DNA of 64,000 bases, from positions 124,001 through 188,000 of the forward strand of contig PGXL01000002.1 of NCBI GenBank assembly GCA_002839095.1. The letters run 5' to 3'. The stretch is from Tenericutes bacterium HGW-Tenericutes-2 (GTDB taxonomy: Bacteria > Bacillota_I > Bacilli_A > Acholeplasmatales > Acholeplasmataceae). Of the stretch, positions 45,402-64,000 are shown piece by piece. The first letter of the stretch is position 1; each line of letters starts with the position of its first letter. Position numbers and translations under genes: made by a program. The notes beneath the pieces are model-generated. The model searched no databases. It saw only the letters and a program-made list of their open reading frames with translations, and was not told where the DNA came from.

Positions 45402-46865
45402 ATGAAAAAAATATTAATGTTGGTATCCATCATTTTATTTGCATTGGTTTTGGTCGCTTGTAATAATAATCCTACAGAAGATCCAACTGATGATCCAACA
45501 ACTCCAGTAGAAGGACAGGTGACAATCACCTATGCTTCTTGGGATTTAGGGTCACCAGATTCACAAGAACCTAATATGCAACGTTTAATGATCCAAGCCT
45601 TTCAGGAAAGATATCCAAATATTAAGGTTAACATTATTGAAAGACCAAAAATTCCTGGAACCAATGACGATTTAGGATGGAATGAGTTCTTAGCTGCTAG
45701 AGCATCTACTCAAACACTTCCTGATGTATTTCAGGCAGATAACATTCCTTTTTATGTCATCAATGACTGGGCATACAATTTAACAACGGTTGCGAATGCA
45801 GATCCTGAATATATAAACGTCAGTGCAGATATTCGTGGAGTTGCAACCTATGATTCCAAGGTGATGGCGATTCCAAATGCTGTTCACTATGCAGGTTATA
45901 TAGTCAATGAAACACTATATGATCGTCAAGGTCAAGATTTTCCGACCATTGATTCAACAATGACTGAATTTTTAAGTCTAACAAAGGCTGCAGCAAACCA
46001 TGCATCCAATAACAATACGGGTGTTGTGGGCTTAGAGGGTATCGAACATATCATTCACTGGTATCCTGCACAGCTCAATACCAATTATCGTTGGTTTACA
46101 TTATCAGATTCTGGATTCAATTTGAATTCAACAGAATTTACATCAACGATGCAAATGTATAGAACACTAAGAACAGATCAAACCTATGTTTTAGAGGCTT
46201 TATATGATGCTGCTGGTGCTGAAAACTCTACAATTGAAATTGGTAACATTTTCCCTGAGGGTGATCCATTCAATAATGGTAATATTTTAGCGAAATGGTT
46301 TTACTCATGGGATTTTGGTTGGATGCAATCGAATATTAACAGTGGTCAATATACATGGGATCTAGAATTTATTGGAACACCTATCGTAAATGGCAACAAG
46401 CGTGTACCAATCGTCGCTGACTTTTATACTGTAGCTTCAAACACAAAAAACCCTGAAGCTGCTTATTTACTAGCAAAATGGATGGGCTTTGGTAAAGAAG
46501 GCTATTTGAAGCGCGTTGAACTATCAAAAACTGTTCCAGGTATATCCCAAGTTAATTTCGCACCAATTCAAAATGACGAAGATTTACTCGATGCTTATTT
46601 TGAGCTATATCCAAATTTCACTGGGTTAAGAACAATTATTGAAACAGGTACATTTATTGTTGAACCACCTAAATATTTACCAGGTTATATTGCAGCACGC
46701 TATTCAGGAACATATGATGCTGAAAATAAGATGTCTGATATTATAACCAAGTTAATGGCAGGAGAAGTAGCCTTAGCTGATATACGTGTACAATTGAACA
46801 CTAGAGCGAATGCACTTTATACAGAAGCCAATAATGAATTTGAAACTGCTTTAGGAAATAAATAA
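45402..46865 (+). CDS. ABC sugar-binding lipoprotein (solute-binding family 1)
   Basis: 487 residues from ATG 45402 (GAGGA upstream). The signal peptide MKKILMLVSIILFALVLVAC has its lipobox cysteine at residue 20, so the binding protein is lipid-anchored. Residues 30-480 show the MalE-type layout: ITYASWDLGSPDSQEPNMQR near the start, DVFQADNIPFY near 110, and NPEAAYLLAKWMGFGKEGYLKR near 350. It captures oligosaccharides for an ABC importer. The permeases that serve it are probably the pair at 49895-51734 or 56009-57819. Confidence 0.93.
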   Translation: MKKILMLVSIILFALVLVACNNNPTEDPTDDPTTPVEGQVTITYASWDLGSPDSQEPNMQRLMIQAFQERYPNIKVNIIERPKIPGTNDDLGWNEFLAARASTQTLPDVFQADNIPFYVINDWAYNLTTVANADPEYINVSADIRGVATYDSKVMAIPNAVHYAGYIVNETLYDRQGQDFPTIDSTMTEFLSLTKAAANHASNNNTGVVGLEGIEHIIHWYPAQLNTNYRWFTLSDSGFNLNSTEFTSTMQMYRTLRTDQTYVLEALYDAAGAENSTIEIGNIFPEGDPFNNGNILAKWFYSWDFGWMQSNINSGQYTWDLEFIGTPIVNGNKRVPIVADFYTVASNTKNPEAAYLLAKWMGFGKEGYLKRVELSKTVPGISQVNFAPIQNDEDLLDAYFELYPNFTGLRTIIETGTFIVEPPKYLPGYIAARYSGTYDAENKMSDIITKLMAGEVALADIRVQLNTRANALYTEANNEFETALGNK

Positions 46866-46912: not shown

Positions 46913-46932
46913 ATTCTTGAATGGAGAAACAG

Positions 46933-49902
46933 ATGAAAATAACACCGAAAATTAAAAAAATTGTGACCTTATCATTGATTTTGCTTGTTTCCTCATTTGC
47001 CATTTTAGGACTTGCTGGAGTGTTTACACCAAAGGAAAATCCAACACCAACATTTGCTAACCTAGAATCAGTTTACCTAGAAAATCATTACTCTAAATAT
47101 TTAAGTCAAATCAATACTAGCGAACCAAGCACTGACGTATCTATATCGATACCGGCAGTGGATTTTGTATTGCCTGATAACGAGGAACTCTCAGAAGACC
47201 AAATGAACTATGAATGGATTGAAGATTCCAGTATTTTTATCCATGTTGATATTGCGGATGCAGGACTTTATTATCTTCATATCAACTACATGTCATTAGC
47301 AAAGACACATATTCCTATCGGACTAGCTGTCAAGCTCAATGGTGCAGAGGATTCTCCTTACTATGAGGCATCACAAATTACACTTCCTACTTTATGGAGA
47401 GAATCATCAACAGATTTAGGTACAGATCGCTATGGCAACGATGTAAGTATCGCTCAAGAAACTGTAGATATTTATCAAGATTTATTAATCAAGGATACAA
47501 GAAGATTATATCAAGATGGCTTAGGCTTTTATTTAGAGGCTGGAGAAAATATCATTGAAATTGAAAAGATTTCAGGAAGCTTAAAGCTTAGAGAAATACG
47601 TGTAGAAACCAAAAAGGAATACATAAGCTATATCGAATATATCCAAAATTACGACAATACAACTGCTGATGAAATAATTAGAATCGAAGCGGAAGAAAAT
47701 CTATATAAAAGCTCTTCAACAATTGCTAGAGGAACAAGTAGAGATCCTTTGGTCAAGCCTTTTTCAATGACAAAGATCAAACTCAATGTTTTAGGCACTG
47801 ATTCCTATGACAATGGTGGAGATGCTGTTTCTTGGGAAGTCGATATTGAACAAGCTGGATGGTATTATATTACATTACGTGCTCAAATGCTAAGACAAAA
47901 TGCTACTTCCTATCGAACACTTTATATCAACGGAGAAATCCCCTTTGAGGAAGCGAAGCATCTACCAATTTCCTATGATAGAAACTGGCAAAATGCAACC
48001 CTAAGAACGATGGATCAAGAAAAGATCAAGGTCTATTTAGAGCCAGGTGATGTCATCACCCTAGAGGTTGATAGCTCATTATTTTCAACGACCCTAGAAA
48101 AGCTAAGAATGATTACATCAGAGATGAGTGCGCTTGGACTTGATGTTACAAAACTAACAAGAAATAATACAGACCGTGGAATTGATTGGGTTATGCTTGA
48201 TTATTTCCCTAACTTAAATAACGATTTATCGAGATGGATTGTTGAACTTGATGAAGCAAAGGAAGTTATTAAATCACTTTATGGCTTCAATAGAACTGCA
48301 CAAATCGTTAGAGATATTGAAGCAGCTAAACAAAAAATAGTCACTATTCAAGGTGATATCAATGAGCTACCAAGAAGACTCACCCTATTATCAACTGGGT
48401 CATCAAGTGCTGTGCAATTGATATCCAATCAGTTTGATAACATCATTAAACAACCTTTAGTTTTAGACGCAATCTATATCCATACCAATTTAGATGTTCT
48501 ACCCAATCCGAATCCAAATCTATGGACAAGAGTTCGAGTTTCTATCTCTCGCTTTTTCCTATCGTTTGTTGATCAGTCCTATTCTGAAAAGGCGGATCCG
48601 GATGAGCTTGAGATATGGGTCAATCGTTCAAGACAGTATGTGGATTTGATGCAAAAAATAGCAGATGATCAATTTACAACTCAAACCGGCATTAAAGTCA
48701 AAATATCATTAATCAATGATGATTCGAAGCTACTTTTAGCAAATTCTGCAGACCAACAACCTGATGCTGCGTTAGGCATATCTGCATGGATTCCTAATGA
48801 ATATGGTATGCGTGGAATGCTCTATGATATGAGTCAAGCTAAAAACTTTAGCCAAACTATTCAAGTCTTTAATCCGGAGCAACTCATTCCAATGACTTTT
48901 GATAATAAGCTATATGGTTTACCTGAAACTGAAAACTTCTTTGTTTTATTCTATAGAAAAGATATACTTGATCAGCTAGACTTAAACGTGCCAAATACTT
49001 GGCAGGATGTTTTAGACATGCTTCCGGTATTGAGAAGATATGGCATGAGCTTTTATATACCGTTATCCTCATCATCAGCATTAAAATCGTTTGATTCAAC
49101 TGCACCTTTAATCTATCAGTTTGAAGGAAAGATTTATGCAGATGATGGATTTGGCTCAGCTATCGATTATGAAAATACAGTTCAAGCCCTATCCTTTATG
49201 ACTGATTTATACCGAGAATATAGTATGCCATTCCAAGTACCTAGCTTCTTCAATAGCTTTAGATACGGAGATATTCCTATTGGTATTGGTGATTTTGGAA
49301 TGTATTTGCAGTTAACCAATGCAGCGAGTGATATTAGTGGTCTATGGGATATTGCACTTGTTCCAGGTATTCCTCATCAAAAACTAAATGAGGATACTCA
49401 AATGATGGAAACCGTGATTAACCGTTCGATGGGTGGAGCACAGCAGGCTTCAATCATCTTTGAAAAATCAGAGAAGAAGGAAGAGGCATGGGAGTTCATC
49501 AGCTGGTGGATGTCAACAGAAACTCAAGTCTTATTTTCGAATACCTTATTAAATACATTAGGCACTAGATATATTTGGAATACAGCAAATCTCGAAGCCT
49601 TTGAACAATTAAGCATCAATAAAGCACATTTAGAGGTTATCTTAGAACAATGGACTCACCTAAAGGAAGTACCGAAAATTCCTGGTAGTTATATTGTAGA
49701 AAGAGAAATTAGTAATACATGGAATAGTGTCGTCTATAATGATGCCAATTTAAGAAGTACGGTCTCGGATGCGATGATTAAAATTGATCGTGAGCTTGCC
49801 AGAAAGATGGTTGAATTTGGCTATCTAGATAGCAAAGGAAACGTCTTAAAACCATTCAATCTACCAACGGTTGAAGATATCTTGAGGTGGTATGATGAGT
49901 AG
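46933..49902 (+). CDS. Large solute-binding protein fused to two N-terminal beta-sandwich-like domains
   Basis: 989 residues from ATG 46933 (GGAG at 46923-46926 gives suitable spacing; ATG 46921 has none). A hydrophobic N-terminal segment (about 10-30) has no lipobox, so it is a signal anchor or cleaved signal. Two beta-rich domains follow near residues 65-225 and 255-400; both contain the same strand pattern ([13 protein letters not shown] and [14 protein letters not shown]), suggesting duplication. A helical linker (430-490) leads to a type 1 solute-binding domain at about 540-960 ([37 protein letters not shown]). Probable dedicated receptor for a large or complex saccharide. The stop overlaps the next permease start. 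Confidence 0.88.
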
Positions 49903-50842
49903 AATGGGATCAGTAAAGCTTAAGGTTAAAAAGTTTATAGAACTAGAAAAAAAGCAGTTTAAGAATGATGATAAAGCCGCTTATCTTTTCACATTGCCTT
50001 ATATCATCTTATTTCTTGCGTTTATTGTTATCCCAATCGCATTAGCGATTATTCTATCCTTTACCACATTTGATATGGTATCATTTCCTACATTTACAGG
50101 ATTTAATAATTATATCTATTTATTAACCAGTGATGAAGAATTCATGAAATATATACTACCAAACACAATTAAATTCGCAGTTATCGTTGGTCCTGGTGGC
50201 TATATATTATCCTTTGTCATGGCTTGGGCATTAGCACAGCTACCTCATAAGCTAAGAACAGTACTAGCCATTATATTATATTCACCATCACTGACAGCAG
50301 GTGTTACGATGACTGTTGTATGGCGTGTATTCTTTGCAGGTGATGAATCTGGTTATCTAAACTATATGCTCCTAGAGCTTGGCATGATTGTAGAGCCTAT
50401 CGCCTTTTTACAATCTCCTCAATATTTATTTACTATTATGCTTGTTGTTGCATTATGGGGATCCATGGGTATCGGCTTTTTAGCAATGCTTGCAGGTATA
50501 TTAAATGTTGATCAAGAGCTTTATGAAGCTGCTTATATTGATGGACTCAATTCAAGATTCCAGGAGGTTATCTATATCACTATACCAGCCATGAAGCCCC
50601 AAATGCTATTTGGAGCCGTTATGGCAATCGTTGGTACATTTAGTGCTGGGGCATTAGGTGTTTCTTTATCCGGATCCAATCCAACACCAAATTATGCAGG
50701 ATCCTTAATTGTAAACCATATTGAAGATTACGGATTTATCCGCTATGACATGGGTTATGCTGCCGCATTATCTCTAGTTCTTTTACTGATTATATATTTC
50801 TTCAGTAGATTATCTTGGAGATTCTTCGGGGACAGAGATTAG
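49895..50842 (+). CDS. ABC sugar permease, MalF-like (pair 1)
   Basis: 315 residues from ATG 49895 (GAGGTGG upstream; ATG 49892 is alternative). Six membrane helices are visible. The coupling motif [25 protein letters not shown] near residues 212-236 is the EAA loop of MalF-type permeases. It overlaps the solute-binding gene by 8 bases. With the 50853 gene it should form a heterodimeric channel for the large binding protein. The ATPase is not encoded here. Confidence 0.95.
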
Positions 50843-50852
50843 GAGGAATATG

Positions 50853-51734
50853 ATGAGAAAAATAAGAAATTTTAGAGCCATCAAAATTAATCCTACTCGC
50901 TTTGGTTGGGGTCAAGTTCCATTCCTACTTATGGTACTACCGATTGCAGCATTTATGATGATGCCGTTAGTCTATATTTTTAATCATGCATTTAAGCCAT
51001 TTGACGAGTTAATCGAATATCCACCAAGATTCTTTGTTAGAAGACCTACCTTGGATAATTTATTTGAATTATTTGAAACTGCAACGACAACAGGTATTCC
51101 TGTTACCAGATATTTATTCAATAGTATTTTAATTACAGCTGCCGTTGTCTTTCTATCTATCTTTTTAGCAACCATCACTGGCTATGCGCTATCTAAATTG
51201 AAATTCCATATAAAAGGAGTTATTTCACAAATCAATACACTAGCGATGATGTTTGTTGGTACAGCTGTTATTATTCCTAGATACATCATTATCGAACAAT
51301 TGGGATTGATTGATAATTTCATGGTGCACATTATTCCTGTCATCGCAATCCCTGTTGGTTTATTCTTAGTCAAACAATTTATCGACCAAATTCCAAATGA
51401 ATTATTAGATGCAGCGAAAATTGATGGTGCATCGAGCATCATGATCTACTGGAAGATTATTCTTCCATTGATTAAGCCTGCAATCGCGACCATCGCGATT
51501 CTCTCCTTCCAAATGGTTTGGAATGATGCAGGTATTTCTGCAACCTATGTCAATACCGATAGCCTAAAGACCTTTGCCTATTATATGCAAACACTTGCCT
51601 CCTCATCGAATGTGGTCGCTGGTGCAGGGATGAGTGCTGTAGCATCACTGATTATGTTTTTACCGAACTTGATTATCTTCATATTCCTTCAAAGTAAGGT
51701 AATGTCAACGATGGTCAACTCGGGGATTAAGTAG
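50853..51734 (+). CDS. ABC sugar permease, MalG-like (pair 1)
   Basis: 293 residues from ATG 50853 (AGGAGG six bases upstream; ATG 50850 is alternative). Six membrane helices; the EAA motif reads NELLDAAKIDGASSIMIYWKIILPLIKP near residues 178-205. A large loop near 38-75 precedes the first permease core. It lies 10 bases after its partner. Its stop TAG abuts the next gene. Confidence 0.95.
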   Translation: MRKIRNFRAIKINPTRFGWGQVPFLLMVLPIAAFMMMPLVYIFNHAFKPFDELIEYPPRFFVRRPTLDNLFELFETATTTGIPVTRYLFNSILITAAVVFLSIFLATITGYALSKLKFHIKGVISQINTLAMMFVGTAVIIPRYIIIEQLGLIDNFMVHIIPVIAIPVGLFLVKQFIDQIPNELLDAAKIDGASSIMIYWKIILPLIKPAIATIAILSFQMVWNDAGISATYVNTDSLKTFAYYMQTLASSSNVVAGAGMSAVASLIMFLPNLIIFIFLQSKVMSTMVNSGIK

Positions 51735-51743
51735 GTGAAGCAT

Positions 51744-53768
51744 ATGAGAAAACTAAGCTTATGGATCATCATTTTAATGACTGCTATACTATCATTTAGC
51801 TTAAAAGAAGTTGAAGCATCCAATCTTTCTAATTATGGAATACCCTATCAAACCTATACACTAAATTCTTCAAAAAGATTGATACCAACCCAGGCAGCCT
51901 ATATTCCAGTTGGTAATTTTGGTCGTAATTTAGGATTATCATTTCCTGAGGATCTCTTTTATGAGAATAATTTGTTTTATATCGCGGATACCGGAAATAA
52001 ACGGATTGTCATATCCAATACATCAGGTGATTTGATTTCTATTATTGACCTACCAGAATTTGAACAACCGACCGGTGTCTTTGTAAAGGATGAATTTTTA
52101 TATGTTGCTGATAAGCTTTCTAAAGAAGTATATAAAATTGATTTATTAACTGAGGAAATCGTTCAAACAATCGTTAAGCCCACTTCACCAATTTATGGAC
52201 AAAAAAATGATTTTGTCCCTATTAAGGTTGCAGTGGATTCCAGTGACTCTATCTATATTATTGGCGAAGGCTCTACATCTGGTGTTATTCAGATGAATTA
52301 TGCAGGAGAGTTTGTTGGTTATTTAGGAATCAATACAGTAACGCTTTCCTTAAGAAGAATTTTATATAACTTCTTTGTACAGGATCCCAATTTAGCATCA
52401 AGCCTGCCAGCCTCCCCTACCAATATCGCCTTAGGTCAAAAGGGTGCGATATTATCAACAAATGTCAATGTCAATGAAACCTTTAAGAGATTAAATATCT
52501 CTGGAGTGAACACATTATTACCTACAACGGTATATCCAACACAGGCATTATCAGATATTTGGATGAGTAATGAATCCTATATTTACTTAACATCTGATAA
52601 TGGTGATGTTTATGAATATGATTCCAATGGGAATATGCTGTTCTACTTTAATACGAAGGATAATGCACTCACTCAAACATTAGGATTAACATCTAATCCA
52701 AAGGGGATTGTTTCTGATAACTCAGGTAATTTATATATTTTAGATCGAGGCTATAATTCAATTCATGTTTATCAAAGAACGGTGTTCGTGGATTTAGTTC
52801 ATAAGGCAGTCACCTTATATAATGATGGAAAATATGTGGAATCGAAGCCTATATGGGAAGAAATCATTCGACAAAATTCATCATTTGCGTTAGCGCATTC
52901 TGCATTAGGTGCAGCCTTAATGAAAGAAGGAGCCTATGATGAGGCTTTATCAGAATTTTATGATGCAAGAGACTATTTAGGATACTCCAATGCGTTTTGG
53001 GAAATCAGAAATGTGTCGATTCAACAAAATCTACCAACCTTCGCGCTTGTAATATTTGGATTATATTTAGTTTTAAAGATTGGCACAGCAATCTTTAGAA
53101 AGTCATTGATTTATCCTCAATATGTAGAGAAGAAGGAAGCCTTCTTAAATAAAAAACTGGTGAAAGAGGTCACCTATAGCCTAAACGTGATTAAAAGACC
53201 TAACGATATGTTTTATGGCATTAAACGGATGAATGAAGCGAGCTATCTATCAGGCTTTATTGTATTAGGACTATTTGTTATCGTTTATTTAATTGATGTT
53301 TACGCAACCGGATTTTTGTTTCGATCAACAAATCTGAATAGTGTAGTCGTTCAGTTAGTCACTGTTTTATCTATCTTTTCATTATATGTGTTAGTCAATT
53401 ATTTAATTTCGACATTAAATGATGGTGAAGGTAGATTTAAGGATGTTTTCATTTCAACATCCTATATTCTCGCACCATTTATTCTATTCACACTACCAAT
53501 GACATTCTTATCCAATTATCTAACCTATAATGAAACATTTATTTTTGATTTCTACCACCAAATCATTTTATGGTGGACATTGATTTTAATTTTCTTATCC
53601 ATCAAATGGGTTCATAATTATACATTCATGGAAACCATTAAAAATATTTTAATTATTCTTTTTGGAATGTTTATCTTAATTTTAATCGGTTTATTAATTT
53701 ATTCATTTATTGGCCAATTGATTGAGTTTATCCTATCAATAATCAAGGAGGTGATCTATCGTGTTTAA
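51744..53768 (+). CDS. NHL-repeat, TPR and Yip1-like membrane protein
   Basis: 674 residues from ATG 51744 (AGGTG upstream; a GTG at 51735 lies before this site). A signal peptide (1-27) is followed by NHL-type beta-propeller repeats at about 40-345 (GLSFPEDLFYENNLFYIADTGNKRI, DNSGNLYILDRGYNSIHV). TPR-like helices follow at about 350-420 (AHSALGAALMKEGAYDEAL). One membrane helix lies near 430, and about five helices at 500-674 resemble a Yip1 domain. Such a fusion has no assigned function. It lies between two permease pairs, so it may organise the binding proteins or the glycan at the surface; this is inference. Confidence 0.8.
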   Translation: MRKLSLWIIILMTAILSFSLKEVEASNLSNYGIPYQTYTLNSSKRLIPTQAAYIPVGNFGRNLGLSFPEDLFYENNLFYIADTGNKRIVISNTSGDLISIIDLPEFEQPTGVFVKDEFLYVADKLSKEVYKIDLLTEEIVQTIVKPTSPIYGQKNDFVPIKVAVDSSDSIYIIGEGSTSGVIQMNYAGEFVGYLGINTVTLSLRRILYNFFVQDPNLASSLPASPTNIALGQKGAILSTNVNVNETFKRLNISGVNTLLPTTVYPTQALSDIWMSNESYIYLTSDNGDVYEYDSNGNMLFYFNTKDNALTQTLGLTSNPKGIVSDNSGNLYILDRGYNSIHVYQRTVFVDLVHKAVTLYNDGKYVESKPIWEEIIRQNSSFALAHSALGAALMKEGAYDEALSEFYDARDYLGYSNAFWEIRNVSIQQNLPTFALVIFGLYLVLKIGTAIFRKSLIYPQYVEKKEAFLNKKLVKEVTYSLNVIKRPNDMFYGIKRMNEASYLSGFIVLGLFVIVYLIDVYATGFLFRSTNLNSVVVQLVTVLSIFSLYVLVNYLISTLNDGEGRFKDVFISTSYILAPFILFTLPMTFLSNYLTYNETFIFDFYHQIILWWTLILIFLSIKWVHNYTFMETIKNILIILFGMFILILIGLLIYSFIGQLIEFILSIIKEVIYRV

Positions 53769-55998
53769 GAATATTATTTTCAAGCGATTGATCATTTTAA
53801 TACTCATCTCATTTTCAATAACCTTTGGAGTATATGCCTTCCTTGAAGAGGAGACTGGTCAACTCGATTCCATTCCTAATTTTGATGAGATCATTCCTTT
53901 AGTGGATTCCAATAAGTATTCTCATCTAAAATCAGATGCCTTAGCTACCAACCAACAAGGATTCTTTGATGAGCCTATTGAAATTCTAACCGTTTATGGA
54001 ACTGTCTATTTAGATCCAGAATCACTCGCCTTTCAGGTTGTTAATAATAATGGATATATTTGGTCTTCAACAATTAATGAAAATGTCCCAGGACTCCCAA
54101 ATACGTTTAAAAGACGTGCGAGAAGTGCAATTATTCTAGAATCATTTAATACAGGTGTAACAAGCTTCGCATTAACTGAAGAAAATCTTTATGAAAGTAA
54201 TACTGAAATTGAGTTAACCTTAATTACCAATGGATTCCACGCATTAATAACCTTTGGAAGATCTGGTATTCAAATGGGATTATATGTAACCTTTGGACTT
54301 GATTCTATCCATGTCGAAATTCCCTATGAAGAAATCAATGAAAGTGGAGTATTTAAAATATCATCTATCAAGGTTTACCCATATTTTGGTGCGGTTTTAG
54401 AAAACCAAATACCAGGATACGTATTTTTACCTGATGGAATTGGTGCATTAGTAGATTATAAGCTAACAGATCCTTTAATTTCAACCAATTATCAAAAGGA
54501 AGTATATGATAGAAATATCGGATACAATCTTGTAAGTAATATGAATACCTTTTTAAGTGGTGGTACGAGAATTTACGCTCCTGTCTTTGGCTTTGTTCAT
54601 GGAATCAATCAAAATGCTGTATTCGCCAATATCACAAGTGGCTCAGAGTACGCGATGATTAACCTATATTTTCCAGCAAGAACCAGAGGATTTACGACTG
54701 TTTTCTCTGAATTTGTTTATCGAAAAACATATCGTCAGCCAATTGATAAGGTTGGAAATACGATATCCTTATTACAATCATTTTCCAATCAAATGGATAT
54801 AAAAATAGAATACACTCTTTTAGAAAATGAAGATGCAAACTATGTCGGTATGGCTAAGACCTATCGAGATTATCTCGATCTTGAATCCTATGAAAGTCAA
54901 TATGATTCGATTCCTTTAAGATTAGACGCGATTGGAATTGAAAAGAATAAGGGATTACTCTTTAACCAAACAACAGTCATGACCACATTTAGTGAGTTTA
55001 GAGATATAACTCTAGATTTAAACAGTCATGGCATCGATTATATTATTGGTAATTTTAGTGGATTTACAAAGCGTGGTGTGACATGGTCAGCACCACAGTA
55101 TGAAAATATATCGAGAAGATTAGGTAGTAAAAATGATCTCGAGTCGCTTCAAGAGGCACTCAGCAGTCTTTATTTCGTGACTGAATACTTAAAGGCAAGC
55201 AATCAATCATCAGGCTATAATCAATACTTTGATTTAGCGAAAAAGATTAATGATCAACTCTATACCTATCTATCAGGAACAGACACCAAATACTTACTTG
55301 AGTATCACGCAGTTCAAAGTATTATGAATAAGAGTATAGCGAAGCTATCAGATGAACCAATTGATGGATTTGCTATCGAATCGATGGGAAGCTTACTTTA
55401 CGATGATTTTAGTAATAAGAAATATCTTCCTGAAGCTATATTAATGTATCAAGAGCTATTATCTAATATCGAAAAGGATATCGCATTGTATGATGTCAAC
55501 TCATATTTATGGAAATCAATGGATTTATATTATGATTTCCCGATGTATTCCTCTCAATATATAACATTTGATGATACAGTACCATTTTTATCGATTGTTT
55601 TAAGTGGTTCTGTTCAGCTATTTGGCCCACACGCTAACTTTTATCCATACGCAAGAGATGAATTGCTTCGCTTAATTGATTTTGGAGTTTATCCATCCTT
55701 CGTCGTCACACAAAAGTCATCTAAGGAGCTTCAAGAAACAGGATTAGAGGCTATTTATTCATCAAAATATGATGATATTAAAAAATCTATATTAGCATAT
55801 TATGATTTTGTTGATGGTGCACTTTCATCAGTCATCGGTCAAAGAATTGTTGATCGTCAAGTCATTACCAATGGTGTTATTCAAATCACCTATGAAAATG
55901 ATATCGTCATATACGTGAACTATAGAGAAACTCCATTTACACAAGGAAGTTTAATTATAGGTGCTAAAAATTATGTAATTAAAGATTTAAATGCTTAG
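53761..55998 (+). CDS. DUF5696-like extracytoplasmic protein, possible glycosidase fold
   Basis: 745 residues from GTG 53761, which is preceded by AAGGAGGTGATC, a full match to the anti-Shine-Dalgarno region; it overlaps the upstream stop by 8 bases. A hydrophobic segment near residues 10-28 is a signal anchor. Residues 70-260 are beta-rich and include the typical GYVFLPDGIGALVDY near 218. Residues 270-640 look like a TIM-barrel-type alpha/beta region, and the end is beta-rich (NDIVIYVNYRETPFTQGSLIIGA). This order recalls glycoside hydrolases with beta-sandwich flanks, but no catalytic pair can be named. No enzyme activity is known to me. Confidence 0.75.
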   Translation: MFKNIIFKRLIILILISFSITFGVYAFLEEETGQLDSIPNFDEIIPLVDSNKYSHLKSDALATNQQGFFDEPIEILTVYGTVYLDPESLAFQVVNNNGYIWSSTINENVPGLPNTFKRRARSAIILESFNTGVTSFALTEENLYESNTEIELTLITNGFHALITFGRSGIQMGLYVTFGLDSIHVEIPYEEINESGVFKISSIKVYPYFGAVLENQIPGYVFLPDGIGALVDYKLTDPLISTNYQKEVYDRNIGYNLVSNMNTFLSGGTRIYAPVFGFVHGINQNAVFANITSGSEYAMINLYFPARTRGFTTVFSEFVYRKTYRQPIDKVGNTISLLQSFSNQMDIKIEYTLLENEDANYVGMAKTYRDYLDLESYESQYDSIPLRLDAIGIEKNKGLLFNQTTVMTTFSEFRDITLDLNSHGIDYIIGNFSGFTKRGVTWSAPQYENISRRLGSKNDLESLQEALSSLYFVTEYLKASNQSSGYNQYFDLAKKINDQLYTYLSGTDTKYLLEYHAVQSIMNKSIAKLSDEPIDGFAIESMGSLLYDDFSNKKYLPEAILMYQELLSNIEKDIALYDVNSYLWKSMDLYYDFPMYSSQYITFDDTVPFLSIVLSGSVQLFGPHANFYPYARDELLRLIDFGVYPSFVVTQKSSKELQETGLEAIYSSKYDDIKKSILAYYDFVDGALSSVIGQRIVDRQVITNGVIQITYENDIVIYVNYRETPFTQGSLIIGAKNYVIKDLNA

Positions 55999-56008
55999 GA
56001 GGATGAAG

Positions 56009-56896
56009 ATGACCAAGAGAAAGATGTCAAGAGCACTTCGTGAAAACTTAATCGGCTATTCATTCATCGGCATTTGGATTGTCGGCTTCTTTATCTTTAT
56101 GTTTTACCCTTTTATCTCTTCTTTAATTTATTCAATGAGTGAGGTTAGAATATTAGGAAGTGGTATTGATGTTCAATTCCATTGGTTCGAGAACTTTAGA
56201 AGAATCTTTCAGATTGAAGAAGGATTCCAGTTTATTGAAGCACTCATTTCATTTCTTAAGGAAATTATCTTCCAGGTTCCAATTATTATTGTATTTTCGG
56301 TCTTGATTGCTGTTTTACTCAATCAGCCACTTAAGGGTAGAGGAATGTTTAGATCCATATTTTTCCTACCAGTTATTATTTCAAGTGGACCAGTCATTAA
56401 TGAGCTAATTACTCAGGGTGCTGGTGGCGCTGCAATCTTTGAAAGCTATGGCTTTATTAGTATTATCGAAAATACACTTAACCCAGGACTTGCAGCACCA
56501 ATTATTAGTGTGTTCTCAGAAATCATTATTATCTTCTGGTTTTCTGGAGTTCAAATTCTAATCTTTTTAGCAGGGCTTCAAAAGGTAGATCGTCAAATTT
56601 ATGAAGCTGCTAGAGTCGATGGTGCAGGACCTTGGGAATCATTTTGGAAGATTACATTACCATCACTATCAACTTTAGTATTTATTAATGTTATCTATAC
56701 CATTGTTTTATTATCAACATTTAGTGAAAATGCAGTCATTATAAGCATTAAATCCAATATGTTTAACATCAATACTGGCTATGGTATGGCATCAGCAATG
56801 GCCTGGGTATATTTCATTATCGTGATGCTAATGATTGGACTTGTCGCTATAATCTTTATCCCCAAAAACGTTAAGGAAGGGGGAAAGAGAAGATGA
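56009..56896 (+). CDS. ABC sugar permease, MalF-like (pair 2)
   Basis: 295 residues from ATG 56009 (AGGAGG at 55997-56002). Six membrane helices; the EAA motif reads IYEAARVDGAGPWESFWKITLPSLS near residues 197-221. It starts 10 bases after the DUF5696-like gene and overlaps its MalG-like partner by 4 bases (ATGA). Its sequence is clearly different from pair 1, so it is a second transporter rather than a recent duplicate. Its substrate is unknown. Confidence 0.95.
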   Translation: MTKRKMSRALRENLIGYSFIGIWIVGFFIFMFYPFISSLIYSMSEVRILGSGIDVQFHWFENFRRIFQIEEGFQFIEALISFLKEIIFQVPIIIVFSVLIAVLLNQPLKGRGMFRSIFFLPVIISSGPVINELITQGAGGAAIFESYGFISIIENTLNPGLAAPIISVFSEIIIIFWFSGVQILIFLAGLQKVDRQIYEAARVDGAGPWESFWKITLPSLSTLVFINVIYTIVLLSTFSENAVIISIKSNMFNINTGYGMASAMAWVYFIIVMLMIGLVAIIFIPKNVKEGGKRR

Positions 56897-57819
56897 ACAA
56901 TAAAAAAACGATGAAATCAAGAATTAAAAGATTTATATTAGGCACGAACGGGACCAATTCAACATTGGCTAAAATTGTGATTTATATCCTTTTGATTGCT
57001 ATTGGATTTTTATACATTTATCCAATGCTATATATGCTTTCCAATTCCCTAAAGAGTCAATCAGATATTATCAATCCAATGGTCAATTGGGTACCAACTG
57101 CGATTTACTTTGGTAATTATGAAAGAGCATTTAGAGTCTTAAGATTTTTCCCAACCTTAAGTAAGAGCTTAGTCGTGACTCTTCTTCCAGCATTAATTCA
57201 AACTGCAGTTACAGCCTTAATAGGCTATGGATTTGCAAAGTTTAATTTTAAATTCAAGAAAATGTGGCTTGTCTTAGTCTTAATGACCTTTATTATTCCG
57301 GTTCAAGTTTACATGATTCCAAGATATGTGATGTTCTTTGAATTTGGATTACTTGAAAAGCCACTTGCTATTATCCTTCCTGCAATTTTTGGTCAAGGTG
57401 TCAATTCTGCAATATTCGTTTTAATTTTCTATCAATTCTTTAGAATGATACCCCAAAGCATTAATGAAGCAGCAGAAATAGACGGTGCTGGTCCCTATTA
57501 CATTTTCTTTAGAATTGCAGTTCCTCTAGCAGTACCTGCATTCATTACTTCATTCTTATTTGGTTTGGTTTGGTATTGGAATGAAACCTATATCGCTTCC
57601 CTATTTTTAGGCTCAGCGTATCCAAATCTACAATTAAGACTCGCAAATTTCGTTTCAGAATACACACAGATTTATTCATCTGATGAATTACTCAGAATTA
57701 ATGAGGGTGTTAGATTAGCAGCAACCCTATTAATCATCCTGCCAATGGTCATTGTTTACTTCGCTATACAAAGATGGTTTGTTGAGGGTGTTGAAAAAAC
57801 TGGTGTTACAGGAGAATAA
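56893..57819 (+). CDS. ABC sugar permease, MalG-like (pair 2)
   Basis: 308 residues. Six membrane helices; the EAA motif reads SINEAAEIDGAGPYYIFFRIAVPLAVP near residues 192-218. ATGA overlap with its partner. The last five codons are followed directly by the GH144-like lipoprotein gene, 5 bases later. The binding protein for this pair is probably one of the two coded upstream. Confidence 0.95.
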   Translation: MNNKKTMKSRIKRFILGTNGTNSTLAKIVIYILLIAIGFLYIYPMLYMLSNSLKSQSDIINPMVNWVPTAIYFGNYERAFRVLRFFPTLSKSLVVTLLPALIQTAVTALIGYGFAKFNFKFKKMWLVLVLMTFIIPVQVYMIPRYVMFFEFGLLEKPLAIILPAIFGQGVNSAIFVLIFYQFFRMIPQSINEAAEIDGAGPYYIFFRIAVPLAVPAFITSFLFGLVWYWNETYIASLFLGSAYPNLQLRLANFVSEYTQIYSSDELLRINEGVRLAATLLIILPMVIVYFAIQRWFVEGVEKTGVTGE

Positions 57820-57823
57820 AAAA

Positions 57824-59209
57824 ATGAAAAACTTTAAAAAATATTTATTACTTTTACTGATAATCTTATCTGGATTTGGACTCATTGCCTGTCAAACAGA
57901 TCCTACAATCCCGACTGAACCAATTGAAACCGTTACACCAACAACTCCAGCTGAAAATACAAAATTATATAGAACAAGTGTAAGAGAAAATGTTTCTCAG
58001 GTTGTTTTAGATGAACTTGAATTAGGCTTCAATTTCTTTTGGGAGCTTGCTAATGATAATTTAGAATCCAATGGCTATGGATTAATTCCTGATCGATTCA
58101 ACACATTCACAGGAAACCCAGGAGGGATTTCTTCAATCGCTTCAGTAGGCTATGGATTATCAGCGATTCCAAGTGGAATTGAAAATGAATTTATAACGAG
58201 AGCTGAAGGTGAAGAAAGAGCATACTATACCTTAGTCACCTTTAAGAATATGCAAAGAACGCATGGTTTTTGGTATCATTTTGTTAATATGCAAACAGGT
58301 CTTAGAGAATGGAACTCAGAGGTTTCCATTATCGATTCTGCTATCTTTATCAATGGTGCACTCACTGTAGGTAGATATTTTGGTGGAAGAGTAGAAAAGC
58401 TTGCATATCAGCTTTATGAAGAGATTGAATGGGACTGGTATTTTGATAACTTAAACAATATGTTTTATATGGGCTATCGTCCTGAATCAGGATTTGAAGG
58501 CTATTGGGATCACTACGGCGAACAGCTGATGGTTTACGTGCTTGCTGCAGGCTCTCCAACGCATAAGGTTGGTAAGGGTGCTTATTCATTCATGAAGTTT
58601 ATGAGCCAAAAATCTGGAACAACAGAGGATTATGATTCATTTTATTTAACATGGACAGGCTCATTATTCACCTATCAATATTCACATGCTTGGGTTGATT
58701 ATTCAAAGGTCAATGACCAACAGGGATATTCATGGTTTAAAAATAGTCAAAGTGCTGTCGATGCAGCGATTGCCTATGCGAAAACTCAAACTGCTACCTA
58801 TATTGGAATTCATGAAAATTCTTGGGGCATGTCAGCAAGCGATGGACCAAATGGTTATGTCGGACCCTATGGGTCAGGCCCTTCCATGGGAAATGCACAC
58901 GTTGTCGATGGAACTGTTCCAGCATATGGTGCGATAGGATCGATAGTATTTAGACCAGAAGAAGCGATTCGTGCGATTGAAAATTATCGTACCTATGACC
59001 GCTTTTGGAGTATTTACGGATTTAAGGGTGCGTACAATTTATCACATTCAACCAATGGTTGGTTTGCTAACGATATTATCGGAATCGATAAAGGGATTTC
59101 TATTTTAATGATTGAAAATTATTTATCAGAAATGATTTGGAAAATCTATATGGAGGTTCCATATATCATTGAAGGATTAAATCAACTAGATTTTCAATAT
59201 GTTGAGTAA
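57824..59209 (+). CDS. GH144-like (PF10091 glycoamylase family) lipoprotein
   Basis: 461 residues from ATG 57824 (AGGA upstream); an upstream in-frame start would bury the signal peptide. MKNFKKYLLLLLIILSGFGLIAC has a lipobox, so the enzyme is lipid-anchored outside. Residues 70-455 show the alpha/alpha-barrel family blocks: YGLIPDRF, SIASVGYGLSAI, SAIFINGALTVG, GFEGYWDHYGEQLMVYV, SWGMSASDGPNGY, and the late FWSIYGFKGAYNL. PF10091 includes GH144 endo-beta-1,2-glucanases; close relatives may differ in linkage. Last gene of the first transcript. Confidence 0.88.
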   Translation: MKNFKKYLLLLLIILSGFGLIACQTDPTIPTEPIETVTPTTPAENTKLYRTSVRENVSQVVLDELELGFNFFWELANDNLESNGYGLIPDRFNTFTGNPGGISSIASVGYGLSAIPSGIENEFITRAEGEERAYYTLVTFKNMQRTHGFWYHFVNMQTGLREWNSEVSIIDSAIFINGALTVGRYFGGRVEKLAYQLYEEIEWDWYFDNLNNMFYMGYRPESGFEGYWDHYGEQLMVYVLAAGSPTHKVGKGAYSFMKFMSQKSGTTEDYDSFYLTWTGSLFTYQYSHAWVDYSKVNDQQGYSWFKNSQSAVDAAIAYAKTQTATYIGIHENSWGMSASDGPNGYVGPYGSGPSMGNAHVVDGTVPAYGAIGSIVFRPEEAIRAIENYRTYDRFWSIYGFKGAYNLSHSTNGWFANDIIGIDKGISILMIENYLSEMIWKIYMEVPYIIEGLNQLDFQYVE

Positions 59210-59270: not shown

Positions 59271-59282
59271 TGAGGTGAAATG

Positions 59283-60506
59283 ATGGACAACAGCGTACTA
59301 CTAGAGATTCAAAAAACAGCATATGATTTCTTTAAGGATTTTACTAACTTTGAAACGAATTCAAAGGCTTTTGGATTAACTCTAGATCATTCTATGAATT
59401 TAGAAAAAGCATCGATTGCATCGACTGGATTTATGCTATCTTCACTAGTTATTGGTGTAAAGCATCATTATTTATCCTATGAAGAGGCATATGATAAGGC
59501 ATATCACACCCTGATTACCTTACGAGATCATGTGATGCATGAATTTGGCTTTTTCGCCCATTTTCTTGATTTTAAGACTGCTGAAAGAATGGGAAAAACT
59601 GAATTTTCTACGATTGATACGGCCTTATGCTTATGTGGTGTACTCACTGTAGATTCATTTTTCAAGGATGAAAAAATTTCTTTAATAACGAAAAACATTA
59701 TGGATAGAATCGATTGGGATATGTTTACCTTTGATTATCAGGGAAAGCCTACATTACATATGGCATATAACCCAGATCGTGGTGGAGACTACGTTCAAAA
59801 AAAACCAGGCTTTATTCACCATTGGGATATGTTTGCAGAGCAGCTCATGATGTATGTCATGATTGGTGGTTCAAAATATAAGCATTTAGCTAAGGAGTTA
59901 TACAATGGCTTTTCAAGAGTCAAAGGGAGCTATAAAGAATTTGAATATATCTATTCACCAGGGAACTCACTATTTGTTTACCAATTTCCACTCGCATGGC
60001 TAGATTTAAAAAATGTTTATGATGAAGATCATATCTCATGGTTTGATAATGCAAGAACAGCAACCCTCGCTCATCAGGCATGCGCAATCGATTATGCAAG
60101 TCAATATAAAACATTCTCTAAATATTTCTTTGGATTTACTGCAGGAGATACGAGAAATGGTTATCGCGTTTATGGAGGACTTCCGAATACCTTAAATAAG
60201 CTAGATACAGATGGAACCATTTGTCCATTTGGACCGATAGGCTCAATTATTTTCACACCTGAAATTTCAATACCAGCAATTGAAGAAATGAGAAAAATTG
60301 AAGGTCTTTGGGGTAAATACGGCTTTTTTGATAGCTTTAATTTTGAAGAGCATACACCTTGGATTTCTAAAAGATATTTTTCTATTAACAAGGGTCTTGA
60401 ATTATTAATGGTGAATGCCTATTTATATCAGGATGTGCATCAAGCATTTATGAGTCATCCAATTGTTATTGAAGGCATGGAGGTGCTTGGATGGAAAAAG
60501 AAATAA
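59283..60506 (+). CDS. GH144-like protein, cytoplasmic form
   Basis: 407 residues from ATG 59283 (GAGGTG upstream; ATG 59280 is too close). No signal peptide. The same PF10091-type blocks as the 57824 gene are seen in changed form: FGLTLDHSM, SIASTGFMLSSLV, STIDTALCLCGVL, HHWDMFAEQLMMYV and FTAGDTRNGY, then FGPIGSIIFTP. An intracellular paralogue suggests processing of imported oligosaccharides after the lipoprotein acts outside. The last 16 bases overlap the GH13 gene. Confidence 0.87.
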   Translation: MDNSVLLEIQKTAYDFFKDFTNFETNSKAFGLTLDHSMNLEKASIASTGFMLSSLVIGVKHHYLSYEEAYDKAYHTLITLRDHVMHEFGFFAHFLDFKTAERMGKTEFSTIDTALCLCGVLTVDSFFKDEKISLITKNIMDRIDWDMFTFDYQGKPTLHMAYNPDRGGDYVQKKPGFIHHWDMFAEQLMMYVMIGGSKYKHLAKELYNGFSRVKGSYKEFEYIYSPGNSLFVYQFPLAWLDLKNVYDEDHISWFDNARTATLAHQACAIDYASQYKTFSKYFFGFTAGDTRNGYRVYGGLPNTLNKLDTDGTICPFGPIGSIIFTPEISIPAIEEMRKIEGLWGKYGFFDSFNFEEHTPWISKRYFSINKGLELLMVNAYLYQDVHQAFMSHPIVIEGMEVLGWKKK

Positions 60507-62101
60507 AATGGTGGAAAAATGCCGTTGTTTATCAAATCTATCCGCTATCCTTTATGGACTCAAATGGTGATGGTATAGGTGATTTAAAGGGTATTGCTAG
60601 CAAGTTGGATTACTTGAAAAATTTAGGTGTCGATGTCATTTGGCTATCACCAGTTTATGAATCACCAATGGATGATAATGGATACGACATCAAAAACTAT
60701 TTAGCAATTGATCCTATTTTTGGAAATATGGAGGATATGAAGAGTTTAATCCAAATGACACATGAATTAGGCATGAAGCTTATTATGGATTTAGTCGTTA
60801 ATCATACCTCTGATGAGCATCACTGGTTTTTAGAATCTAAAAAGTCTAGGGATAATATATACCGCAATTTTTATGTGTGGAGAGATGAGCCCTCTGATAT
60901 TGGTTCAGTTTTTGGTGGGTCTGCATGGGAATACGATCAATTGACAGATTCATATTATTTTCATTTATTTTCCAAAAAACAACCAGATCTCAATTGGGAT
61001 AATCCAATATTACGTCAAAAAATATATGCAACTGTTAACTTTTGGTTAGACCTTGGTATTGATGGATTTAGATTAGATGTCATTGATTTAATCGGTAAGG
61101 ATATTGATCATAAAATACTATCTGATGGACCACATCTAATTGAAAGACTACAAGAGCTTTATAATGAATGCTTTAGAGGCAGAGATATTATGACAGTTGG
61201 AGAAATGCCTGGTCTATCCTTAGAAAGAGCAGCGGATATAACATCTGGTAAAAATCCTTTATTGGATATGATTTTCCAATTCTCACATATAAGTTTAGAT
61301 GAGATTCCTGGAAAGGGTAAATGGGCATTAAAAAATCTTGATTTAATTGAATTTAAGAATGTTTTTGAAAAGCTTCAAAGCCTTATGTATAACCATGGCT
61401 GGAATTCATTATTTCTAGCTAACCATGATCAGCCAAGAGCAGTGACTAGATATGGGAGTGAAAAATATCGAAGTGAAAGTGCAAAAATGCTAGCAACCAT
61501 TTTATATAGCATGCAGGGAACACCCTATGTTTACCAAGGTGAAGAAATAGGGATGACTGGTGTGAAATTTGAAAATATTGATATGTATAAGGATATTGAA
61601 ACGAAAAATATTTATCATATCCTAACGAATCAAGGAATTTCACATGAGAAAATTATGGAATCCATCTATCAAAAGGGTAGAGATAATTCAAGAACACCAT
61701 TTCAATGGGATGATTCAAAAAATGCAGGATTTTCAAGTGGAACACCATGGCTAGATGTCAATCCAAACTACACAAAAATCAATGCTAAAAAGGATTTAGC
61801 TAGTGAAGATGGTTGTTATCATTATTTTAAAAAGCTTTTTCAAATTAGAAAGAGTCATCAAGTCTTTAATGATGGAAGATTTATTCCATGGATGAAGGAT
61901 CATCCAAAAATGTTTTCTTATTTTAGAAAAAACGATAAAGAAGAAATTTTAATCATTGGATCCTTCAGTGATGAAAAAATGGTTTTAGAATTACCCAATA
62001 AGACATACGAGTTATTAATTTCTAATGATGATCAAGTAAAAATAGAACATCATATGGAAATTTCACCATATTATGCATGTATTTTAAAAATCGGAGGATA
62101 A
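60491..62101 (+). CDS. GH13 alpha-glucosidase (oligo-1,6-glucosidase type)
   Basis: 536 residues. The (beta/alpha)8 catalytic core shows all four GH13 regions: DLVVNHTSDEH near residue 100, GFRLDVIDLIG near 194 (nucleophile aspartate), GEMPG near 236 (acid/base glutamate) and LANHDQPR near 315. NSRTPFQWD and the small C-terminal beta domain fit the GH13_31-type oligo-1,6-glucosidases and related alpha-glucosidases. It is cytoplasmic and is expected to split short alpha-linked oligosaccharides. Ribosome site GGAGGTG; overlaps the previous gene. Confidence 0.95.
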   Translation: MEKEIKWWKNAVVYQIYPLSFMDSNGDGIGDLKGIASKLDYLKNLGVDVIWLSPVYESPMDDNGYDIKNYLAIDPIFGNMEDMKSLIQMTHELGMKLIMDLVVNHTSDEHHWFLESKKSRDNIYRNFYVWRDEPSDIGSVFGGSAWEYDQLTDSYYFHLFSKKQPDLNWDNPILRQKIYATVNFWLDLGIDGFRLDVIDLIGKDIDHKILSDGPHLIERLQELYNECFRGRDIMTVGEMPGLSLERAADITSGKNPLLDMIFQFSHISLDEIPGKGKWALKNLDLIEFKNVFEKLQSLMYNHGWNSLFLANHDQPRAVTRYGSEKYRSESAKMLATILYSMQGTPYVYQGEEIGMTGVKFENIDMYKDIETKNIYHILTNQGISHEKIMESIYQKGRDNSRTPFQWDDSKNAGFSSGTPWLDVNPNYTKINAKKDLASEDGCYHYFKKLFQIRKSHQVFNDGRFIPWMKDHPKMFSYFRKNDKEEILIIGSFSDEKMVLELPNKTYELLISNDDQVKIEHHMEISPYYACILKIGG

Positions 62102-62103
62102 TC

Positions 62104-63063
62104 ATGTCAACAATCAAAGATGTTGCTAAATTAGCTGGAGTATCTATTTCAACCGCATCCTATGCCTTGAATAATTTACCGAATGTACATCCAGATACGA
62201 AAAAAAGAATATTAGAAGCAGCAGAGCAATTGAAATACTATCCAAATGGAATCGCAAGAAACCTTAAAACCAAGCGTACTGGAAGTATCGGCGTCTTTAT
62301 TTACGGATTTGCGGGTCCTATTTTTAGTGATGTCTTAGAGGGTATTCGTCAAAAGCTTCAAGAAAATAATTTCAACATCGTTGTTAGCTCAGGAAAATCC
62401 TCAGCTAACCTCCTCAAGGAACGTCAAATTGATGGAGCGATTATCTTTGATAATGAGCTTTCTGATGATGTTTTAATTAATTACGCGAATTACGGGCTAC
62501 CTCTTTATGTATTGGATCGAAAACTAGATGGTAAAAATATCTATTCCTCCTTAATTGATAATGAGGGTTTAGTCTATCACTTCATCAAAGAGATGATTAA
62601 AAAGGGGTATAAGGACTTTGGATATTTATCTGGTCCAAAGGTAGCGTTTAACAATAATCACCGCTATGACGGGTTTGTTGCTGCATTAAAGGATGAAAAT
62701 ATCAGTACCCACCAGCATTTTGATTGTGATTTTACAATCCAAGGTGGATATCAAGTCGGAAAAGAACTTATAAAAAGTAAAAATAGACCAAGATTTATTT
62801 ATTGTGCAAATGATGAATCAGCAATTGGATTGATGCAGGCACTACGTGAAGAAAACATTAAGGTACCAGAGGATATCGCAATTGCAGGATTTGATAATAT
62901 TTATTTAGGTGAATATATAACACCTAAGCTAACAACAATCGGAATTGACCACGTTTTGTGGGGTAAAGAGGTTGCAGGAGCAATTCTTGATATCCTACAG
63001 AGTAATAAAATTAGAAATATAGGTCATCCAAAGGGATCAGTTATCTATAGAGAATCTTGCTAA
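62104..63063 (+). CDS. LacI family transcriptional regulator
   Basis: 319 residues from ATG 62104 (GGAGGA upstream; an earlier in-frame start lies inside the GH13 end). The helix-turn-helix is TIKDVAKLAGVSISTASYALNN (residues 3-24), and the hinge helix and the periplasmic-binding-like core (60-319) follow. It is expected to bind GAAACGTTTC palindromes (41276-41289, 41430-41443, 59257-59270) and release them on binding an imported sugar. It is probably autoregulated because O3 is upstream in its own transcript. Confidence 0.93.
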   Translation: MSTIKDVAKLAGVSISTASYALNNLPNVHPDTKKRILEAAEQLKYYPNGIARNLKTKRTGSIGVFIYGFAGPIFSDVLEGIRQKLQENNFNIVVSSGKSSANLLKERQIDGAIIFDNELSDDVLINYANYGLPLYVLDRKLDGKNIYSSLIDNEGLVYHFIKEMIKKGYKDFGYLSGPKVAFNNNHRYDGFVAALKDENISTHQHFDCDFTIQGGYQVGKELIKSKNRPRFIYCANDESAIGLMQALREENIKVPEDIAIAGFDNIYLGEYITPKLTTIGIDHVLWGKEVAGAILDILQSNKIRNIGHPKGSVIYRESC

Positions 63064-63093: not shown

Positions 63094-64000
63094 ATGGATA
63101 TCAAACAACTACTTAAAAAACTAACCATAGAAGAAAAAATCGGACAGCTACTTCAGCTCTCTCCTTTTAATTTCATTAGAGATATTGAAGTTGAAGTATT
63201 TGGACATCTCAAGGAATTGGGATTGAATGAAAAAAAGGTTTTTTCTGCAGGATCAGTTTTAGGTATTCATAACGCATCTGAAATGATTGCCGTCCAAGAA
63301 AAGTATTTAAGAAAAAGTACACATCAAATCCCACTTGTTTTTATGGCTGATATTATCCATGGATATGAAACCATATTTCCAGTGCCACTAGCATTATCGA
63401 CTTCATGGAATCCTAAGCTCGCATTTGAAATGGCTAGAGTTTCTGCAGTAGAAGCGTCCACAGCAGGTATACATGTCACATTCTCTCCGATGGCTGACAT
63501 CTCTAGAGATCCAAGATGGGGTAGAGTTGTTGAAGGATTTGGTGAGGATCCATATTTAAATAGTCTTTTTGTTAAGGAAATGGTGAAGGGCTATCAGCAG
63601 GATGACATCAGTATTGATGGAAATATAGCAGCGTGTGTAAAGCATTTCGCTGCATATGGTGCTGCTGAAGGTGGTAGAGATTATAATACTGTAGATCTAT
63701 CTCGAATAAACCTGCATAATTATTATTTAAAGGGATATAAGGCGGCTATTGATGCCGATGTGAAGCTAATTATGACATCATTTAATGTTGTTGACGGTAT
63801 TCCAGCAACCATCAATAAGCATCTTTTAAGAGATGTGTTAAGAGATTTATGGAAGTTTGAAGGATTAACAATCTCTGATTATGATTCACTGCATCAAGTT
63901 GTTCCTCATGGAAATGCCGAAAATGATGAAGAGGCAGCCCTCAAGGGAATTGTTGCAGGACTAGATATTGAAATGGCATCAACCTGCTATATCAATTATT
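63094..64000 (+). CDS. GH3 beta-glucosidase-like enzyme, 3' truncated by the window
   Basis: 302 residues are visible from ATG 63094 (AAGAGGA upstream). GH3 blocks: LLKKLTIEEKIGQLLQL near residues 6-22, MADIIHGYETIFPVPLALS near 83-101, DISRDPRWGRVVEGFGEDPYL near 134-154, CVKHFAAYG near 185-193 and the nucleophile region TISDYDSL near 266-273. No signal peptide, so it acts on imported oligosaccharides. The C-terminal domains, and so the linkage preference, are outside the window. Terminal enzyme of the second transcript. Confidence 0.94.
   Translation, partial: MDIKQLLKKLTIEEKIGQLLQLSPFNFIRDIEVEVFGHLKELGLNEKKVFSAGSVLGIHNASEMIAVQEKYLRKSTHQIPLVFMADIIHGYETIFPVPLALSTSWNPKLAFEMARVSAVEASTAGIHVTFSPMADISRDPRWGRVVEGFGEDPYLNSLFVKEMVKGYQQDDISIDGNIAACVKHFAAYGAAEGGRDYNTVDLSRINLHNYYLKGYKAAIDADVKLIMTSFNVVDGIPATINKHLLRDVLRDLWKFEGLTISDYDSLHQVVPHGNAENDEEAALKGIVAGLDIEMASTCYINY

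Follow-up and report, generated by a model that had tools for sequence, protein, structure and literature searches.

A conserved NHL-TPR-Yip1 protein as a candidate accessory subunit of a dual-permease ABC glycan importer

In a 64,000-nucleotide stretch of DNA from Tenericutes bacterium HGW-Tenericutes-2 (contig PGXL01000002.1; the whole stretch analysed is called the window below), a gene at 51744..53768 encodes a 674-aa protein joining an NHL beta-propeller, TPR hairpins and a Yip1 domain. Gene content links this protein strongly to glycan uptake, and the reading that we favour, at a probability of roughly 55%, is that a dual-permease ABC glycan importer contains it as a core accessory subunit, independent of the substrate. 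It is encoded in a seven-gene cassette with the order big SBP, permease, permease, NHL-TPR-Yip1, DUF5696, permease, permease. This cassette is a putative variant of the carbohydrate ABC importer, apparently undescribed.

Architecture of the NHL-TPR-Yip1 protein

The fusion ORF begins at GTG 51735 or ATG 51744 and its stop codon occupies 53766-53768 (every feature located between 45402 and 63063 of the window lies on the + strand). Residues 1-25 (51744..51818; hydrophobic at 5-23, model helix 2-27) form a putative signal sequence or N-terminal anchor. The NHL beta-propeller (residues 37-345, 51852..52778) was recognised by Pfam (PF01436, E 9.8e-11), appeared as strands in the AlphaFold2 model of the fusion (pLDDT 89.8, pTM 0.79) and was matched to NHL domains in the fold search (Z about 30 over 262 residues at 2.5 A, the matches covering the propeller part). 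On the single sequence, the TPR hairpins (residues 347-410, 52782..52973) gave a TPR_16 match under the Pfam cut-off (E 4e-4); a profile from 72 homologues matched solved consensus-TPR chains at residues 356-410 (E 1.7e-45 and 1.3e-27, repeat matches summed), and the model placed four helices at 347-408, between the propeller and the membrane. The first internal TM helix (residues 433-451, 53040..53096) was located by hydropathy and charge, within a model helix spanning 411-453. The Yip1 domain (residues 481-648, 53184..53687) scored just above the Pfam cut-off (PF04893, E 1e-6, 29.2 bits against 28.6); the Yip1 scores of the homologues in loci L164 and L148 were 45.2 and 45.8 bits. Hydropathy picked out five hydrophobic stretches starting at residue 499, taken as the five TM helices of this domain.

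The loop after the first internal TM helix (residues 447-498) carries a net positive charge in 72 of the 72 homologues, which fits a cytosolic position of the loop and a propeller and TPR region outside the cell. The protein thus fits a topology of signal sequence, outer propeller and TPR region, one TM helix, cytosolic loop and five-TM Yip1 domain. The alignment of the fusion comprised, after length filtering, 71 of 80 named loci (the best 80 of 201 confirmed relatives). The ectodomain and the Yip1 part were conserved to about the same degree, and a cytosolic loop at residues 552-567 was the most conserved region.

A chance ORF or an artefact is ruled out by the Pfam domains, the confident model and the conservation across the 80 named loci (best 80 of 201), and an oddity specific to the window by the finding of the family in many genomes. 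A secreted propeller linked through TPR helices to a Yip1-like membrane domain, as given in the preliminary description, was confirmed by Pfam, the 72-homologue profile, the AlphaFold2 model and the fold search; its wording of an unusual fusion needs correction, the protein belonging to a conserved family that is widespread and also occurs naturally in a split form. None of ten proteins scanned against NCBIfam had a model above its cut-off. A defence-system reading was rejected, as PADLOC gave no match for the fusion or DUF5696.

In the split sub-clade, NHL-TPR and Yip1 are encoded by two adjacent genes, at the same place in the cassette, ahead of DUF5696. The 16 sampled sequences of the split group formed one clade in the NHL-TPR tree (support 0.966), the L164 sequence among them being fused, and 15 split members grouped with L164 in the DUF5696 tree (support 0.816). 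Fission (or fusion) of parts that remain neighbours suggests that both halves work together. The DUF5696 proteins of L162, L163 and L164 are 1015-1317 aa long, with an additional 380-680 N-terminal residues lacking a Pfam match at E 0.01.

The seven-gene cassette and its linkage to DUF5696

In the window, an extracellular SBP (45402..46865; SBP_bac_1, 6.1e-7; lipoprotein-like N terminus by eye) precedes the big SBP (46921..49902, 993 aa), which was assigned by Pfam and by its conserved position across loci and which has an N-terminal membrane segment (by eye), a long N-terminal region weakly matching CBM_35 and a C-terminal SBP domain. Permeases Pf1 (49892..50842) and Pg1 (50850..51734) lie upstream of the fusion, and Pf2 (55991..56896) and Pg2 (56893..57819) lie downstream of DUF5696 (53761..55998), in agreement with the placement between two permease pairs that had been described. 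All four permeases are of the BPD_transp_1 family and retain the EAA-type loop. Pf1 and Pf2, and likewise Pg1 and Pg2, separated as two clean clades (0 of 136 misplaced and support 1.0 in each case), so that both pairs, which the trees indicate to be anciently distinct, have been kept.

Downstream of the cassette there are two PF10091 enzymes, which we take to be GH144 (57821..59209, with a lipoprotein-like N terminus, a substrate-specific neighbour; and 59280..60506, where no signal sequence was seen by eye; both assigned by Pfam). They are followed by a GH13-type alpha-amylase family enzyme (60491..62101) and a LacI-family regulator (62104..63063). At the window's end, a GH3-like ORF (63094-64000) is cut; it scored 291 bits against a GH3 profile derived from the third cassette of this genome. 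Upstream of the cassette, 41498-45286 encodes a 1262-aa secreted, lipoprotein-like protein of repeated units, whose 300-nt copies are 67-82% alike. A large protein is also encoded upstream of the two other cassettes of the same genome (CBM_4_9 and HYR domains).

The exact seven-gene order was present in 68 of the 80 named loci (best 80 of 201), which belong to Bacillota/Mollicutes and Chloroflexota plus one Treponema, and include Bacillus, Paenibacillus, Lachnospiraceae, Acholeplasmataceae and seven Chloroflexota loci. Nine of the 12 loci deviating from this order (best 80 of 201) were cut by contig ends. In L090 the first Pg was missing at its place, in L145 an opposite-strand ORF was called between DUF5696 and Pf2, and in L148 there was only an SBP directly upstream of the fusion. 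The last of these (L148:7545-12285) reads SBP, fusion, DUF5696, with no permeases directly upstream; it stands behind a GH2-type gene, its contig ends inside DUF5696, and it is possibly a minimal cassette. An ordinary SBP was found upstream in 34 and downstream in 23 of the 80 loci (best 80 of 201), and none was found within five genes in the other 23.

SBPs and paired permeases with EAA loops are present as in CUT1-type carbohydrate ABC importers (MalFGK2-like), together with a UgpC-type ATPase in some loci; the cassette differs from CUT1 importers in its two permease pairs and in DUF5696 and NHL-TPR-Yip1 as fixed extra genes. The membrane fusion protein and MacB-like permease of a YknWXYZ-type system are absent, the neighbours being SBPs and BPD_transp_1 permeases. 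The ORF list of the window's operon contains no ATPase gene. An ATPase gene stands directly before the big SBP in 19 of the 80 loci (best 80 of 201), and in a Paenibacillus record this gene is named ugpC and the fusion homologue 'YIP1 family protein'. Searching the window's own genome with the ABC-ATPase model gave 69 matches, which do not single out the ATPase used.

The GTG start of DUF5696 (53761) overlaps the fusion stop and is preceded, at a distance of 5 nt, by a Shine-Dalgarno-like stretch read directly within the 3' end of the fusion gene (AAGGAGGTGAT, 53745..53755). The DUF5696 ORF begins at or before the fusion stop in 75 of 79 loci (best 80 of 201; ORFs were taken from their first start, making the overlaps upper bounds). 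In 61 genomes (the window's and 60 relatives), the fusion or its split form occurred in 41, DUF5696 was above cut-off in the same 41, and neither was found in 20. DUF5696 lay at most 3 kb downstream, on the same strand, of 140 of the 150 transcribed NHL/Yip1 matches in these genomes, and the remaining 10 were all no more than about 0.7 kb from a contig end (seven on four inspected contigs, three recognisable by their minus-strand coordinates of 1-27); on two of the inspected contigs (L150 and L152) a cut DUF5696 ORF was present after all. Conversely, 104 of 108 DUF5696 matches had an NHL/Yip1 partner and the other four were cut by contig ends. Among 392 genomes of the phylum, 48 harboured the fusion/split family, and DUF5696 was present in 48 of these 48. 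There were five further DUF5696 matches, four of them weak (43-55 bits) and the fifth a short ORF of 339 aa accompanied by two permeases (L166:4904-8006, genome G097). This last is a real exception to the linkage, with no NHL/Yip1 partner within 12 kb.

The preliminary description had proposed translational coupling and a shared job with DUF5696, and had named homologues standing alone or in unrelated operons as the observation that would speak against it. The start/stop overlap and the Shine-Dalgarno-like stretch support the coupling; the survey of 61 genomes did not refute the linkage, and the shared job is strongly supported by the 140 linked matches and by the position of the other 10 at contig ends. 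Distance matrices were most strongly correlated between the fusion and DUF5696 (r 0.96; 68 loci with full order from the best 80 of 201, 54 for the SBP); since correlations were high between all cassette genes (0.74-0.96), this value reflects co-inheritance as much as contact.

Enzyme neighbours and the DUF5696 partner

The genome of the window harbours three paralogous cassettes (the other two are L005 and L006), each with its own copy of the fusion or split protein and each with different carbohydrate-active enzymes: the two PF10091 enzymes and GH13 in the window, GH16 beside the second, and NamZ, GH3 and DUF624 beside the third, which has the split form. In 20 stretches fetched from the 3' side of split-group cassettes, NamZ plus GH3 was present in 12, GH3 only in two and neither in six, one of these six being 1.3 kb long. 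The flanks of the 80 loci (best 80 of 201) contained GH144-type (13), GH35 (10), GH16 (10) and SOGP-type (9) genes, some of the SOGP matches being weak. The leading carbohydrate-active families among the 77 downstream neighbours scanned (out of 96) were GH16 (9), GH35 (5), GH42 (5), GH43 (4) and SOGP (3). GH16 is presumably linked to beta-1,3-glucan. GH144, SOGP and GH35 are supported as beta-1,2-glucan genes in the passages of PMC8861115 used here. When enzyme type was mapped on the NHL-TPR tree (34 labelled cassettes, unlabelled ones left out), it required 4 changes, compared to a minimum of 9 and a mean of 14.4 in 2000 shuffles that ignore relatedness. Enzyme type follows cassette phylogeny. 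Luciferase-like monooxygenases accounted for 4 of the 77 neighbours scanned, and three LLM-class flavin oxidoreductase genes adjoin the cassette L173, on a plasmid of Paenibacillus cellulosilyticus.

The DUF5696 protein of the window (745 aa; Pfam E 1.8e-140) has a GH129-like fold, to which both the profile search and the fold search led (Z 29.2 over 562 residues to NagBb, 5wzn; Z 28.3 over 575 residues to ZgGH129/DagB, 5opq). It shares this fold with GH129 glycosidases over its full length, at 12-14% identity. DagB mutants of D486, E517, E531 and D202 were inactive according to the part of PMC5698469 consulted. D486 is the one residue of these four that could be placed on the DUF5696 alignment (74 of 80 loci after length filtering, best 80 of 201; E517, E531 and D202 are unplaced), and in the HMMER alignment it falls in a variable, non-acidic column of DUF5696. 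Acidic columns above 90% were restricted to D225 and D/E640 (75 sequences). An active GH129 enzyme is not favoured by the loss of the one catalytic acid placed, and DUF5696 is likely a non-enzyme, predicted here as non-catalytic. D225 might correspond to D202 of DagB, and another catalytic set, for example around D225, is possible.

Proposed role of the NHL-TPR-Yip1 protein

Because the same gene set is reused with different enzymes for different sugars, the fusion probably has a part in building or organising the uptake machinery, not in selecting the sugar. An assembly or scaffold role is suggested by the predicted topology, by the constant presence of the protein beside different enzymes and by analogy with YknW. 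As far as the available passages of PMC4887032 and PMC4338810 go, YknW is a Yip1-family protein of Bacillus, encoded in an ABC operon, that reportedly modulates assembly of the YknXYZ ABC exporter. The likeness is a Yip1-family membrane protein that belongs to an ABC operon; the difference is that YknXYZ is a MacAB-like exporter that includes a membrane fusion protein, while the neighbours of the fusion are carbohydrate import permeases, and that those passages mention neither propeller nor TPR in YknW, whereas the fusion has both. Yip1 proteins also occur together with ABC exporters in bacteriocin clusters (in the passages of PMC10707071 and PMC11580447 consulted).

In the mechanism that we propose, the five-helix Yip1 domain would pack on the permeases and drive their assembly, and the TPR hairpins and propeller would project outside, docking DUF5696 and the SBPs over the permease mouths. 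DUF5696, a GH129 fold seemingly devoid of catalytic acids, would probably be a glycan-holding receptor. The capture of long glycans would in this way be tied to two import channels, powered by a UgpC/MsmX-type ATPase whose gene adjoins the cassette in some Paenibacillus-type loci and would lie elsewhere in the genome in the remaining cases. Organisation of the transporter at the surface, as initially suggested, would be consistent with all of the observations. Against the subunit reading, the exporter to which YknW belongs represents a different ABC type, and the propeller could bind a ligand of its own; L148, L166 and the 23 of 80 loci (best 80 of 201) without a nearby ordinary SBP count on the same side.

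The SUS of Bacteroidetes is likewise a glycan-uptake chassis repeated with different enzymes; the comparison is one of working alike, not of membership, as the cassette is built on ABC permeases and not on a TonB-dependent porin. A more complete picture would be a four-permease machine, clamped by NHL-TPR-Yip1 and fed by DUF5696 as a dead-enzyme receptor, importing long glycans as an ABC counterpart of SUS in which the enzymes could be exchanged to suit beta-1,2-glucan, beta-1,3-glucan, peptidoglycan or further substrates; taken as a whole, we hold this picture to be doubtful.

The best surviving alternative, which we consider unlikely, is a surface receptor or lid: the propeller would bind glycan, or cap DUF5696 or the SBP, and pass substrate to the permeases, Yip1 serving as an anchor only. 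BtuG is a propeller lipoprotein that hands substrate to the outer-membrane vitamin B12 importer, and a B12-bound Bacteroides lipoprotein (8okv, rank 33) was among the fold matches; however, such matches are expected from so generic a fold. Conservation of the ectodomain is similar to that of the Yip1 part, which speaks for a receptor, but cassettes beside different enzymes share this one family, a finding that does not point to a specific sugar site, and a single TM helix would be enough as an anchor, yet all five TM helices have been retained, also where Yip1 is encoded by a gene of its own.

It is improbable that the protein acts outside the final importer, as a chaperone for the folding or maturation of DUF5696 and the big SBP. 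The fusion gene precedes DUF5696, mostly overlapping it, and contacts between proteins are often made through TPR and propeller folds, both of which suit a biogenesis factor; a general chaperone could, however, be shared, whereas the three cassettes of one genome each keep their own copy. Least probable is a signal relay, with the propeller as a sensor of extracellular glycan or of the state of the transporter and Yip1 passing the signal to the cytosol to control the ATPase or gene expression: histidine-kinase ATPase domains (6 of 77) and response-regulator domains (4 of 77) occur among the scanned downstream neighbours and loop 552-567 is the most conserved region, but this loop could equally be a structural feature of Yip1, the fusion has no output domain, and LacI-type regulators exist in some loci, including the window.

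In the literature searched, with subscription papers mostly outside it, no paper was found on DUF5696, and searches combining Yip1 with SBP/permease or NHL and related terms returned nothing on such a cassette. The component families are known; what appears new is that they are combined in a fixed way and that this set is reused for different glycans. The cassette is present in bacteria of several phyla, from gut, rumen, soil and elsewhere, with two non-standard proteins that are nearly always there. For bacterial Yip1 proteins and for DUF5696 it suggests a role open to testing, and for glycan-utilisation loci it provides a new marker.
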